A stretch of 60,659 nt of DNA. Source: Pseudomonadota bacterium (GTDB lineage: Bacteria; Pseudomonadota; Alphaproteobacteria; Acetobacterales; Acetobacteraceae). Numbering within the stretch: position 1 is the stretch's first letter; every line of letters starts with the position of its first letter. The notes under the pieces are model-generated. The model saw only the letters and a list, made by a program, of their open reading frames with translations. It did not search any database and was not told the origin of the DNA. Location of the stretch: NCBI GenBank assembly GCA_021798575.1, contig JAJZGI010000007.1:1-60659 (forward strand), given 5' to 3'. This document shows, piece after piece, positions 21,730-44,518 of the stretch. The translations under genes and the position numbers were made by a program.

Positions 21730-22677
21730 ATGAAGATTTTCAGAAACTGGCAGAACCTGCCCGCCAGCGCGTGCGGCGCCAGCCTGGCGCTGGGGAATTT
21801 TGATGGCGTGCATCTCGGCCATGCCGCGGTGCTGCGCGCCGCCCACGCCGCCCGGCCCGGTGCGCCGCTCGGCGTGCTCACGTTCGAGCCGCATCCGCGC
21901 GGCTATTTCCGCCCGCAGGACCCGCCGTTTCGCCTGACTTTGGCGGCGGAGCGCGCGGCGGCTCTGGCCGCTCTGGGCGTGGAACTGCTGTATGAGCTGC
22001 CGTTCGACGCGGCCTTTTCCCATATTTCAGCGGCGGATTTCTGCGCGCAGGTGCTGCACCGGGGTCTGGGCGCCGTACAGCTCGCCTGCGGGGCGGATTT
22101 CGCCTTCGGCCACCGCCGTGGCGGGGACATCGGGCTGCTCACGGCGCAGGCCGAGGCGCTGGGCATCGGCGTCTCCATCGTCCCGCCGGTGGCGGACGCG
22201 CAGGGGCCCATCTCCTCCACCCGCATCCGCCGGCTGCTCCAGGAGGGCTACCCGGACCGCGCCGCCCTGCTGCTGGGCCGCGCCCATACCATCCGTGGCG
22301 AGGTGATCCACGGCGATGCGCGCGGCCGCACCATCGGCTTTCCCACCGCCAATATCCCGTTGGGCGAGCATCTGGAGCCCGCGCGCGGCGTGTATGCCGT
22401 CACCGCCCGGCTGCCGGGCGGCCAAAGCGTGGAGGGTGTGGCCAATATCGGCCAGCGCCCCACCGTGGGCGGCATCGAGCCACGCCTGGAGGCGCATCTG
22501 TTCGACTTTACCGGTGATCTGTACGGCCAGGAATTGTCTGTCGCGTTGCATGAATTCATCCGCGAGGAACAGAAGTTCGAGAATTTCGCGGCGCTGCAGG
22601 CGCAGATCGCGCGGGACGCGCTCACCGCCCGGCGCTGCTTGACAGGCCGCAGAATCCCGCCAAACCCCACCCCATGA
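21730..22677 (+). CDS. ribF: Bifunctional riboflavin kinase / FAD synthetase
   Basis: Makes FMN then FAD from riboflavin. The N-terminal nucleotidyltransferase domain has LGNFDGVHLGH and the ISSTRIR motif; the C-terminal riboflavin kinase domain has GRTIGFPTANI and the ARGVYAV strand. The ATG at 21730 gives 315 residues, the family norm; the open frame continues upstream without homology into the divergent DUF2125 gene. Its stop overlaps the ileS start (ATGA), giving the common ribF-ileS-lspA unit. Confidence 0.95.
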   Translation: MKIFRNWQNLPASACGASLALGNFDGVHLGHAAVLRAAHAARPGAPLGVLTFEPHPRGYFRPQDPPFRLTLAAERAAALAALGVELLYELPFDAAFSHISAADFCAQVLHRGLGAVQLACGADFAFGHRRGGDIGLLTAQAEALGIGVSIVPPVADAQGPISSTRIRRLLQEGYPDRAALLLGRAHTIRGEVIHGDARGRTIGFPTANIPLGEHLEPARGVYAVTARLPGGQSVEGVANIGQRPTVGGIEPRLEAHLFDFTGDLYGQELSVALHEFIREEQKFENFAALQAQIARDALTARRCLTGRRIPPNPTP

Positions 22678-25568
22678 GTGAACCAGTCGCCGATAAAAAA
22701 CCCTCTGTCTTCCTGCCGCGCACGGACTTCCCGATGCGCGGGGACCTGCCCGTGCGCGAGCCCGTGATGCTCAAACGCTGGGAGGAGATGCGCCTGTGGG
22801 AGCGGCTGCGGCAGCGCGCCCGGGGCCGCCCAAGCTTTATTCTGCACGACGGCCCGCCTTACGCCAACGGCAATCTGCATATCGGCCACGCGCTGAACAA
22901 AATCCATAAGGATGTGATCAACCGGGCGCAGCAGATGGCCGGGCGCGATGCCAACTACATTCCCGGCTGGGACTGCCACGGGCTGCCGATCGAATGGAAG
23001 ATCGAGGAGCGGTACCGGGCGGCCAAGAAGAACAAGGATGACGTGCCGATCCTGGAGTTCCGCCGGGAGTGCCGGGAGTATGCGCAGCACTGGCTGGACG
23101 TGCAGGCCGAGGAGTTCAAACGCCTGGGCGTGGCGGCGGACTGGGCCAACCGCTACGCCACGATGGATTTTGCCTCGGAGGCGGCGATCGCCGCGGAGAT
23201 CGGGAAGTTCCTGCAAAATGGCGCGCTGTATCGCGGGCTGCGCCCGGTGCTGTGGAGTCCGGTGGAAAAAACCGCTCTGGCCGAGGCCGAGGTCGAGTAT
23301 CACGATAAAAAAGACACGGCGATCTGGGTGCGGTTTCCTATTTTACTTACCCCTCCGTACGTAGGGGTTCCAAAGACAGGCCGACCGGTAAATGAAAATC
23401 TAAGTGGCGCATCTATTGTTATTTGGACGACAACTCCGTGGACAATTCCGGGTAACAAGGCCGTCGCGTTCGGCCCAGAGCTTGTATATGAGTTAATCCG
23501 CGTCAAGGAAGTTGCGTTGGGCTCTCTGGCCAAACCGAATGAGAAACTTCTCGTTTCATCCGGTCGTCTTCAGAAATTTTGCGCGGATGTTGGTGTCACG
23601 GCATTCGAGTCGTTGAGGAAAATTCGCGGCCACGGCGATGAAATTAGCTATGATTTAGGTCTGATGTTGTGCGAGCATCCCCTAAAAAACCATCCCTTGG
23701 CAGGTGCAGGGTATTCTGATCCAAGTAGGGTTTTGCAGGGCAGTTTTGTTACGGATGATGCCGGAACCGGCTTTGTTCATATCGCGCCGGGCCATGGCGA
23801 GGATGATTTTATTCTTTGTCGTAACTTTAATATGGCTGTTGAAGAAAATTCTAAAATAACTGTGCCTGAAACGGTTCAGGATGATGGGCTTTATTATCCT
23901 TCGGTCCCAATTTTTGCCGGGAAGCACGTCTATAAGATTGCTGACGATGTTTGTGAGGCTCTTAAAAAATGTGGTAACTTACTCCACAGAGAAGAATTCA
24001 CCCACTCCTACCCGCATTCCTGGCGCTCCAAGGCCCCGTTGATCTACCGCGCCACCGCGCAATGGTTCATCCGCATGGATGGTATCCAAACCGATGGGAC
24101 CAAGAGCATCCGCGAAAAAGCCCTGGCGGCGATCGATACCACCCATTTCGTGCCTGAGATCGGCCGCAACCGTATCCGTGCCATGGTCGAATCCCGGCCG
24201 GACTGGTGCATCTCCCGCCAGCGTGCCTGGGGCGTGCCGATCGCCGTCTTCGTCCATAAGTCCACGCACGAGCCATTGCGCGATGGCGCGGTGATGGAAC
24301 GGATCGTGAAGATTTTTGAGGCCGAGGGCGCGGATGCCTGGTATGCCCGCCCGGCGCAGGATTTTCTCGGCGGCGATTATAAAGCCGAGGATTACGAACA
24401 GATTTTCGATGTCGTGGATGTGTGGTTCGAATCCGGCTCGACCCACGCCTTCGTGCTGGAGGCGCGCGGCCTGCCGACCCCGGCGGATGTCTATCTGGAG
24501 GGCTCGGACCAGCATCGCGGCTGGTTCCAGGCGTCGCTCCTGGAGTCGGTCGGCACGCGCGGGGTGGCGCCCTTCAAGGCCATCGTCACGGATGGCTTCG
24601 TGCTGGACGAGCAGGGCCGGAAAATGTCTAAATCGATGGGCAATGTGACGGCCCCGCAGGAGGTGAACGACAAATACGGCGCGGATATCCTGCGCCTGTG
24701 GGTGATGAACGCGGACACCTCGGAGGATCTGCGCATCGGCCCGGAGATCCTCAAGCAGCAGGCGGAGCTCTACCGCCGGCTGCGCAATTCGCTGCGCTGG
24801 ATTCTGGGCTCGCTCGATGGTTTCACGACGGCAGAGAAACTGCCCGAGGCGGAATTTCCGGAGCTGGAAAAACTCATCCTGCATCGTTTGTGGGAACTCA
24901 ACCAGAGAATCTCGCGCGCGGTGGAAACCCATGACTGGACCGGGGTCTATCCCGCCATTCATTATTTCTGCGCCACCGACCTCTCGGCATTCTATTTCGA
25001 TATCCGCAAGGACTCGCTCTATTGCGACCAGCCCGCCGTGCCAAAACGCCGCGCCAGCCGGACCTTGCTCGATATCCTGCACCGCGCCCTGACCGCCTGG
25101 CTCGCACCCGCACTGCCGTTCACGGCGGAGGAATCCTGGACCGTCCGGTTTGGTAACGACGAATCCGTGCATCTCACGCTGTTCCCGGAAATTCCGGAAA
25201 GCTGGCGTGATGACGCGCTGGCCGAGCGGTGGGTTGATATAAAAAAAATACGTTCAGTAGCAAACGCTACTCTAGAGATGGCGCGCAACGAAAAGTCGAT
25301 AAAGTCCTCTCTTACCGCAACGTTAATTTTACCAAAAAGTGCAGGTATACTGTCCTCCGAAGAATGGGCTGAGCTGTGTATTGTTTCAAAGGTGGCATTT
25401 AGCCTTAATTCTGAGGGCACTAGCGTTCTCGTTGGGGGTCTCCGATCCAATATTCGTGTTGAGCCTGCCCGGGGCGAAAAATGCGAGCGTTGCTGGCGCG
25501 TGCTGGAGGAGGTCCGGGAAAATCCGACCCATTTGTGCGTCCGCTGTTGCGCGGCGGTGGCGGCATGA
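22674..25568 (+). CDS. ileS: Isoleucyl-tRNA synthetase, compositionally mosaic
   Basis: Class Ia aminoacyl-tRNA synthetase charging tRNA-Ile. The 964-residue protein has the HIGH motif in NGNLHIGHALNK (near residue 69), the CP1 editing domain with WTTTPWTIPGN and GTGFVHIAPGHGEDD, the KMSKS loop in GRKMSKSMG (near 649) and a C-terminal Zn site CERCWRVL ... CVRC. Codon use and GC change sharply inside the gene: 23341-23460 is about 48% GC and 23821-23880 about 35%, while 22801-22860 is 73%. A second low-GC patch runs from about 25228 to 25470. The reading frame is intact, so the enzyme is expected to work. Confidence 0.96.
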   Translation: MSEPVADKKPSVFLPRTDFPMRGDLPVREPVMLKRWEEMRLWERLRQRARGRPSFILHDGPPYANGNLHIGHALNKIHKDVINRAQQMAGRDANYIPGWDCHGLPIEWKIEERYRAAKKNKDDVPILEFRRECREYAQHWLDVQAEEFKRLGVAADWANRYATMDFASEAAIAAEIGKFLQNGALYRGLRPVLWSPVEKTALAEAEVEYHDKKDTAIWVRFPILLTPPYVGVPKTGRPVNENLSGASIVIWTTTPWTIPGNKAVAFGPELVYELIRVKEVALGSLAKPNEKLLVSSGRLQKFCADVGVTAFESLRKIRGHGDEISYDLGLMLCEHPLKNHPLAGAGYSDPSRVLQGSFVTDDAGTGFVHIAPGHGEDDFILCRNFNMAVEENSKITVPETVQDDGLYYPSVPIFAGKHVYKIADDVCEALKKCGNLLHREEFTHSYPHSWRSKAPLIYRATAQWFIRMDGIQTDGTKSIREKALAAIDTTHFVPEIGRNRIRAMVESRPDWCISRQRAWGVPIAVFVHKSTHEPLRDGAVMERIVKIFEAEGADAWYARPAQDFLGGDYKAEDYEQIFDVVDVWFESGSTHAFVLEARGLPTPADVYLEGSDQHRGWFQASLLESVGTRGVAPFKAIVTDGFVLDEQGRKMSKSMGNVTAPQEVNDKYGADILRLWVMNADTSEDLRIGPEILKQQAELYRRLRNSLRWILGSLDGFTTAEKLPEAEFPELEKLILHRLWELNQRISRAVETHDWTGVYPAIHYFCATDLSAFYFDIRKDSLYCDQPAVPKRRASRTLLDILHRALTAWLAPALPFTAEESWTVRFGNDESVHLTLFPEIPESWRDDALAERWVDIKKIRSVANATLEMARNEKSIKSSLTATLILPKSAGILSSEEWAELCIVSKVAFSLNSEGTSVLVGGLRSNIRVEPARGEKCERCWRVLEEVRENPTHLCVRCCAAVAA

Positions 25569-43354: not shown

Positions 43355-43828
43355 TCAGTCTGCGCGATTGCCCGATTCTCCATCGACCACGCGAGTCGGC
43401 GCTACTGTTGTTTTGCCCTGACCCCGTGAAATGGGGATATTTTTGACCACCGGCTGCGGCACCGGGCGAACCAGATCGACATGCAACAGCCCGTTATCCA
43501 GCCATGCGCCCTTCACCTCGATTCCCTCCGCGATCACGAAAGCCCTCTGGAACTGGCGCGCCGCAATACCCCTGTGCAGAAAAACACGCCCGTTGCCATC
43601 GTCAGTCTGGCGGCCACGGATTACCAACTGGTTATCTTCCAGGGTAATCTGGAGGTCATCCATCGTGAATCCGGCCACGGCGAGGGTAATACGCAGCGAT
43701 ATCGGGCTGAGCTGCTCGATATTATACGGCGGATAGCCCTCAGAGGTGTTCTTCGAGGCGCGCTCGATCATCTGTTCGAGATGGTCGAACCCCAAAAACA
43801 AAGGCGACGTAAATACACGGGCGGTCAT
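43355..43828 (-). CDS. Small heat-shock protein, Hsp20 family
   Basis: ATP-independent chaperone holding unfolded proteins. The alpha-crystallin domain spans about residues 38-130: YPPYNIEQLSPISLRITLAV, LEDNQLVIRGRQ, then FQRAFVIAEGIEVKGAWLDNGLLHVDL. The C-terminal IxI-like anchor is present as KNIPIS. I use ATG 43828 (MTARVFTSPLFLGFDHLE), typical of the alphaproteobacterial class and preceded by GGGGGAG at good spacing; an ATG at 43885 would add 19 residues. DUF1150 follows downstream. Confidence 0.92.
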   Translation of the reverse strand: MTARVFTSPLFLGFDHLEQMIERASKNTSEGYPPYNIEQLSPISLRITLAVAGFTMDDLQITLEDNQLVIRGRQTDDGNGRVFLHRGIAARQFQRAFVIAEGIEVKGAWLDNGLLHVDLVRPVPQPVVKNIPISRGQGKTTVAPTRVVDGESGNRAD

Positions 43829-43978
43829 CAGGCGGGCTCCCCCAGGTTTGAGCGAAGCAGAAAATGGACCCATCAAGGCATCCACGGCCTATGTTGTCAC
43901 GATTCGCGGCCGTTGCAAGCCCCCGCGCGAGGCACGGCGCATTTGCGGGCATGGCAAAGCGGCATTAAAGCCGGAACC

Positions 43979-44518
43979 ATGTCTGATACGCAAACCTCGA
44001 CTCTGCTGACCATCCGGATCGTCCCCGACCCGGTACTGCGCAAAACCGCACGGGCGGTGACACCCGCGGATGCCGCCCAGGTGCGGGCGTTGATCCCGCA
44101 GATGTTCGCCACCATGTACGCGGCACCCGGCATCGGTCTGGCGGCGCCGCAGGTGGGGGTGCTGCTTCGCCTGGTCGTGATCGATATCGCGCCGGAGAAA
44201 ACCCCCGCACCGCTGGTTCTCATCAACCCGGAGGTCGTCGCGGCGAGCCCGGAGAGCGCGACGCGCGAGGAGGGTTGCCTCTCCCTGCCAGAGCAATATG
44301 CGCAGGTCGTCCGCCCGGCCTGGGTGCGAGTGAAGTACGAGGACGAGCGAGGCGCCCGCCGGGAGATCGAGGGCGACGGGCTGCTGGCCGCCTGCCTCCA
44401 GCACGAGATCGACCATCTGAACGGCGTTCTATTCGTGGACCATCTCTCGGCGCTCAAGCGTAACATGTTGCTGCGCAAGCTCGCCAAGGAGCAGAAGGAA
44501 AAGACCAGCCGCAAATGA
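43979..44518 (+). CDS. def: Peptide deformylase
   Basis: Metalloenzyme that removes the formyl group from nascent proteins. All three motifs are intact: GIGLAAPQVG, EEGCLSLPEQ and QHEIDHLNGVLF. The 179-residue form starts at ATG 43979; the frame remains open upstream into the Hsp20 gene without homology. It is followed by fmt and truA in the common def-fmt-truA order. Confidence 0.96.
   Translation: MSDTQTSTLLTIRIVPDPVLRKTARAVTPADAAQVRALIPQMFATMYAAPGIGLAAPQVGVLLRLVVIDIAPEKTPAPLVLINPEVVAASPESATREEGCLSLPEQYAQVVRPAWVRVKYEDERGARREIEGDGLLAACLQHEIDHLNGVLFVDHLSALKRNMLLRKLAKEQKEKTSRK

Follow-up and report, generated by a model that had tools for sequence, protein, structure and literature searches.

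A low-GC CP1 editing domain in an Acidocella isoleucyl-tRNA synthetase gene, probably placed there by recurrent homologous replacement

The window considered here, the whole stretch of DNA that was analysed, is the entire contig C46 (60,659 bases) from a draft genome of 2.37 Mb in 95 contigs (G000), and its ileS gene, which encodes an isoleucyl-tRNA synthetase (IleRS; the protein from this gene is termed Q), bears a patch of low GC content over the CP1 editing domain. The best explanation for this patch, and in our judgement a highly probable one, is recurrent homologous replacement of a CP1 editing cassette in the native ileS of Acidocella, the product of which would be a native catalytic core joined to a divergent proofreading module. 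In Acidocella and Acidiphilium, both acidophiles, and in some other Acetobacteraceae, CP1 appears to have been repeatedly swapped for long-loop, lower-GC versions with the editing motifs held fixed. The evidence lies in a step of composition and divergence with definable boundaries, a jump in synonymous difference, recurrence among relatives, the absence of the same pattern from ValRS and LeuRS, and loop types common to two genera.

Composition and divergence of ileS in the window

The features of the gene are as follows.

22674..25568, forward strand: ileS, isoleucyl-tRNA synthetase, 964 residues, frame open across 964 codons
23280..23336, forward strand: conserved left block, residues 203-221, on the native side of the left boundary
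23337..24002, forward strand: tract of putative replacement, residues 222-443, comprising the CP1 editing domain with low third-position GC, delimited by a two-breakpoint fit and the composition dip
23337..23414, forward strand: hypervariable loop 1, residues 222-247, long form
23427..23456, forward strand: Thr-rich editing-site motif TTTPWTIPGN, residues 252-261, intact
23607..23747, forward strand: variable loop 2 region, residues 312-358
23763..23810, forward strand: editing-site motif GTGFVHIAPGHGEDDF, residues 364-379, intact
24003..24038, forward strand: conserved block on the right, residues 444-455 (HSYPHSWRSKAP), with native sequence from here on
25206..25448, forward strand: second low-GC patch, C-terminal domain, codons ~845-925, GC 0.48

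The GC content falls from 0.73 at 22801-22860 to 0.47 at 23341-23460 and 0.35 at 23821-23880, values that reproduce the counts of an earlier reading of this DNA from its letters alone (73%, about 48% and 35%; hereafter the original prediction), and over 23337-23995 it stands at 0.47, compared with 0.64 upstream and 0.62 downstream of this stretch. The GC content at third codon positions (GC3), plotted in windows of 30 codons (90 bp) as had been suggested, ranges from 0.73 to 0.97 up to codon 210, displays the dip as values of 0.23-0.63 within codons 211-450, and then returns to 0.80. The best single dip spans codons 209-441 (0.43 inside against 0.76 outside), with a score of 58.3 compared to a maximum of 35.4 across 2000 codon permutations. 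A 150-codon scan of coding-like open reading frames of at least 250 residues, drawn from 327,562 bases (the window and 17 stretches of its own genome), ranks the within-gene GC3 drop of ileS (0.34) as the largest of 154 (next 0.25; mean 0.077, standard deviation 0.049). By the same scan, the next strongest drops in this sample lie at L164:5795-6964 (0.25) and at 43481-44515 of the window (0.24).

Judged by its motifs and predicted fold, the low-GC patch is the CP1 editing domain of IleRS, as originally proposed. The class I motifs HIGH and KMSKS occur in Q at 69 and 650, Pfam matches were obtained to PF00133 (tRNA-synt_1; E 2.9e-132) and PF08264 (Anticodon_1; E 2.4e-22), and residues 934-958 match zf-FPG_IleRS at 20.1 bits, below the cut-off of 21.3; the nearest solved sequences are IleRS 8c9e (named type 1) and 1ffy. 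A predicted model of residues 195-469 (mean predicted local distance difference test score, pLDDT, 82.8) resembles IleRS 8c9e/8c9f with E ~1e-18 and, with TMt 0.80-0.84, the isolated editing domains 1ue0/1wk8. Among 31 aligned IleRS sequences TTTPWT is invariant and the second editing motif is slightly variable (APAHG, GEEDF, GADDF). Q would be expected to have kept its editing activity.

Against 29 other Acidocella IleRS, the core of Q (residues 55-215 and 445-720) is 86-91% identical, whereas its CP1 (222-438) is only 48-57% identical. A fit of two breakpoints to the raised nucleotide difference between Q and eight Acidocella sequences that have no dip returns 222-443 as the best tract, which agrees closely with the residues of about 222-441 originally claimed. 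In the core tree Q falls within a monophyletic Acidocella (29 rows, support 99). The original claim of a CP1 replaced by recombination on a native core therefore stands as the best reading, by the identity split and the core tree, while the low-GC donor that it also supposed was not found. The neighbouring genes ribF and lspA are 71-77% (28 loci) and 51-71% (25 loci) identical to their Acidocella counterparts, respectively.

Recurrence in relatives

Of the 97 rows of a family alignment (from which the partial rows L241 and L115 were dropped), 14 have a GC3 dip of more than 0.12, namely six Acidocella, four Acidiphilium (g96), two g63, one g50 and one g21; these rows were mostly chosen among the best CP1 matches to Q, and the fraction is no family frequency. 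With slightly different column limits, seven of 30 Acidocella display the dip, the extra one at the threshold. Within the dip, GC3 is 0.44 in Q, 0.39 in L242 and 0.41 in L090. When placed on the core tree, the dip requires at least 12 changes, six of them in Acidocella, with gain and loss not distinguished. Five of the 29 other Acidocella do share the dip, a circumstance that the original prediction had set against itself, but they count as separate changes on this tree. A composition dip inherited by the genus is rejected, as 23 of the 29 Acidocella rows are without it and as sisters contradict it: the dip of L101 is missing from L110, although their cores are 99% identical.

The dip is accompanied by length. 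A CP1 of at least 200 residues occurs in all 14 dip rows compared to 37 of the 97 rows overall, and dip and long CP1 co-occur in nine independent pairs (median p 0.016, range 0.008-0.06). Close core relatives may differ profoundly in this domain, with identities of 0.96 in core and 0.53 in CP1 for L090/L100, 0.96 and 0.47 for L090/L118, and 0.99 and 0.66 for L101/L110. The alignment reveals loop types and insertions that are common to Acidocella and Acidiphilium and absent from close core relatives, although the CP1 domains of Acidocella L118 and Acidiphilium L243 are only 59% identical despite their common loop type. A further observation concerns L252 (G314, g63), where, at Q residues ~230-246, loop 1 starts like that of L250, which has a near-identical core, and then abruptly contains extra residues, a pattern suggestive of a recombination join within the loop.

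Synonymous divergence and controls

At fourfold-degenerate sites, the difference between L243 and L237 is 4 and 8% in the halves of the core and 46% in CP1, a six- to elevenfold rise inside sharp edges. The corresponding values are 21 and 23% against 56% for L101/L110, 24 and 34% against 79% for L090/L118 and, as a weaker case, 4 and 7% against 22% for L250/L252. Since selection on amino acids does not cause such a synonymous jump, it argues for replacement of DNA over change of the protein. Tract fits were strong in 11 of 16 comparisons and weak only in the other five, some comparisons sharing a sequence and thus not being independent. Ten of the 11 strong tracts have their left edge at 217-224 and one at 243; on the right, six end at 355-368, four at 426-447 and one at 491, with the GTGFVHIAPGHGEDDF motif (364-379) as the right boundary of the shorter tract type in relatives. 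Conserved blocks coincide with the tract edges, as expected for homologous exchange, although constraint would place edges there too.

The synthetases ValRS and LeuRS serve as controls; of 38 genomes, 35 yielded valS and 37 yielded leuS, and 30 loci of each were used. Neither displays a CP1 dip in Acidocella (30 sequences, 435 pairs each), and the correlation between core and CP1 there is 0.87 for ValRS and 0.72 for LeuRS, compared to 0.45 for IleRS. Two control genera of the family, g17 and g31, likewise have no GC3 dip. The CP1 fourfold divergence of IleRS exceeds that of the core at p<1e-3 in one of 136 pairs in g17 and five of 406 in g31, as opposed to 91 of 406 in Acidocella and 19 of 66 in Acidiphilium; removal of the six dip members leaves 11 of 253 in Acidocella (genomes used: 17/17 for g17, 29/31 for g31 and 12/13 for Acidiphilium; pairs from one genus depend on one another). 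The median ratio of CP1 (222-365) to core amino-acid rates is 3.8 in both Acidocella and Acidiphilium and 2.3 and 2.0 in the control genera. Entropy in the loops at 225-244 and 315-334 reaches 2.2-2.7 bits compared to 0.8-1.6 in the control genera, and the editing motifs vary about as little as they do there. A generally fast evolution of CP1 is insufficient to explain these results, as both the ValRS/LeuRS controls and genera g17 and g31 differ. Among the sequences collected, L105 (ileS of G020), L175 (valS of G031) and L215 (leuS of G016) each contain one stop inside the match (TGA, TAA and TAG, respectively), which may be match overruns or draft errors.

Phylogenetic tests and donor searches

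In the CP1 tree, L090 is the partner of Q (100/99), and a grouping of Acidocella L118 with the Acidiphilium sequences L243 and L246-L248 is moderately supported (87/92); L108 joined that grouping in a quick CP1 tree and not in the careful one. The approximately unbiased (AU) test on CP1 data was applied to seven groupings of the core tree, named after the trees had been inspected, and rejects three of them: L090+L100 (p 8e-5; core support 80), L090+L100+L097+L118 (p 4e-4; core support 99) and the Acidiphilium group L242/L243/L237/L244/L245 (p 5e-6; core support 85). The segment trees that the original prediction had proposed as a check are discordant in part. Data from each core half fit the CP1 tree far worse than the tree of the other half (log-likelihood differences of 644 vs 194 and 584 vs 145), and removal of the ten dip rows abolishes the excess misfit (111 vs 130, 93 vs 89).

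Several results weigh against replacement. On CP1 data, the AU test does not reject L101+L110 (0.52), L243+L237 (0.48) or L118+L100 (0.17), does not quite reject the L108 group (0.058), and rejects the monophyly of neither Acidocella (0.5) nor Acidiphilium (0.40). The whole-tree AU test rejects the tree of each segment on all other segments, even N half against C half, and was set aside as a proof of recombination for being non-specific. In Acidocella, residues 840-930 display a fourfold excess over core of +0.20, as large as that of CP1 (+0.12 to +0.19), and residues 721-835 and 931-964 also exceed the core by +0.11 to +0.15; the excess at 840-930 in g17 and g31 is +0.06 and +0.10. This C-terminal excess marks a second divergence hotspot in Acidocella, where Q has its second low-GC patch, a feature absent from the original prediction.

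The donor searches belong with these contrary results. No close CP1 donor was found in 397 genomes of the family, the best matches being 64% (Acidocella G028) and 61% (Acidiphilium G295) identical; 299 genomes of the order returned the same two best matches and again no close donor, and 385 genomes of the class nothing further at E<=1e-62, these samples being overlapping. None of 820 Acidocella/Acidiphilium pairs has a CP1 closer than its core at p<1e-3, and thus no recent transfer is seen between the sampled species. The phage (12) and plasmid (185) records with a match were all below 60% identity, the ten listed of each being at most 43%, and viral contigs gave no relative in a search with patterns from the full-length protein, which reach close relatives only. 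The own genome has no second match to Q at E <= 1e-100 and no further CP1 cassette, with only a short match at C42 (query bases 10-48, 85%) besides Q itself. Neither a silent cassette for gene conversion, of which pilE/pilS is the example, nor a second ileS was thus found in the own genome. Within Acidiphilium, L246, L247 and L248 (G384, G396 and G339) combine a long CP1 with a core GC3 of 0.55-0.58, compared to 0.74-0.93 in the other members, and G384/G339/G396 constitute a possible donor-like lineage.

Alternative explanations

The most probable alternative, although unlikely, is an old balanced polymorphism in which long and short CP1 alleles predate the split of the genera and have been sorted by recombination within species, with no import from outside. 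It overlaps with the explanation preferred here, as DNA would still be exchanged, and differs in the source of that DNA. The loop types common to both genera at a CP1 identity as low as that of L118 and L243 make the sharing look old, and no recent donor was found, both of which speak for such a polymorphism. However, an old dip should fade in a high-GC host, whereas the dips of Q, L242 and L090 are deep, which suggests a more recent arrival from lower-GC DNA.

Acceleration in place, by which CP1 would have changed fast and with AT bias under relaxed or positive selection and without import, is improbable. The lack of donors and of pairs with a closer CP1 speaks for it, CP1 outpaces the core in the control genera too, neither genus monophyly and only three of the seven core groupings are rejected on CP1, and edges at conserved motifs would also follow from constraint. 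It does not account for the fourfold rise within the sharp edges of L243/L237, for loop types and insertions common to genera and missing from close core relatives, for the three rejected groupings, or for the normal CP1 of ValRS and LeuRS.

An assembly chimera, conceivable in a draft of 95 contigs such as G000, is very improbable given that the frame is intact over both joins, as first claimed, and that like patches occur in other assemblies, for example G188 (3.6 Mb contig) and G373 (1.3 Mb contig). That the entire gene came from another lineage is barely credible, as no support for this was found and Q belongs to Acidocella not only by the core tree but also by its N half (97) and, weakly, its C half (74).

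Mechanism and significance

Recurrent homologous replacement would proceed by DNA uptake and recombination of the incoming DNA in the conserved blocks at ~203-221 and at either ~364-379 or ~444-455, such that the stretch between them is replaced. The low GC3 of the tract points to donors of lower GC, perhaps kin of G384/G339/G396 or unsampled lineages. The swaps are perhaps under diversifying selection, and the combination of variable loops and fixed motifs is more in keeping with selection on the surface than with selection on the chemistry of editing. As a tentative proposal, CP1 may be an arms-race surface whose loops are bound by an antagonist (a toxin, a phage protein or a natural inhibitor), with negative frequency-dependent selection keeping an old pool of alleles recombining across genera while the editing motifs stay frozen, by analogy with restriction specificity subunits and immune receptors.

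As a rule, aminoacyl-tRNA synthetases are regarded as housekeeping enzymes that evolve slowly, a picture with which the repeated swap of a proofreading domain contrasts. The restriction to IleRS, with ValRS and LeuRS of the same genus unaffected, and the many cases in Acidocella and Acidiphilium as opposed to very few in two other genera of the family suggest a pressure that acts specifically on the editing function or the CP1 surface of IleRS. These natural chimeras offer material for studying how selection acts on proofreading in nature, and full-length ileS trees of Acidocella and Acidiphilium would mix histories.

Comparison with known systems

Among the literature matches listed, titles and the starts of abstracts hold no report of CP1 swapping. 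Work on ileS1 and ileS2 describes horizontal transfer of whole IleRS genes among bacteria, and reports that in 334 IleRS the conserved regions of the editing domain are free of relevant substitutions or deletions (PMC4861432); in the portion of that paper considered here, movement concerns whole genes and exchange of CP1 alone is not described. A scan of Ralstonia, in the part considered, has metG and tyrS on its list of candidates for balancing selection, which would provide a precedent for selection on bacterial synthetases (PMC6580516).

Q itself is like the bacterial type 1 IleRS in its HIGH and KMSKS motifs, CP1 editing motifs, anticodon domain and, putatively, C-terminal zinc-finger-like stretch, but unlike it in its long, variable CP1 loops and in a CP1 that apparently derives from another sequence pool than its core. 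Mosaic genes formed by homologous recombination are well known from penicillin-binding proteins, the target-recognition domains of HsdS and flagellin. As in those genes, a variable cassette in ileS appears to be exchanged between conserved blocks with the flanks remaining native; unlike in those genes, it encodes the proofreading part of an essential aminoacyl-tRNA synthetase. Recombination that creates mosaic genes is thus familiar, and it is its place in the editing domain of ileS that is unexpected.
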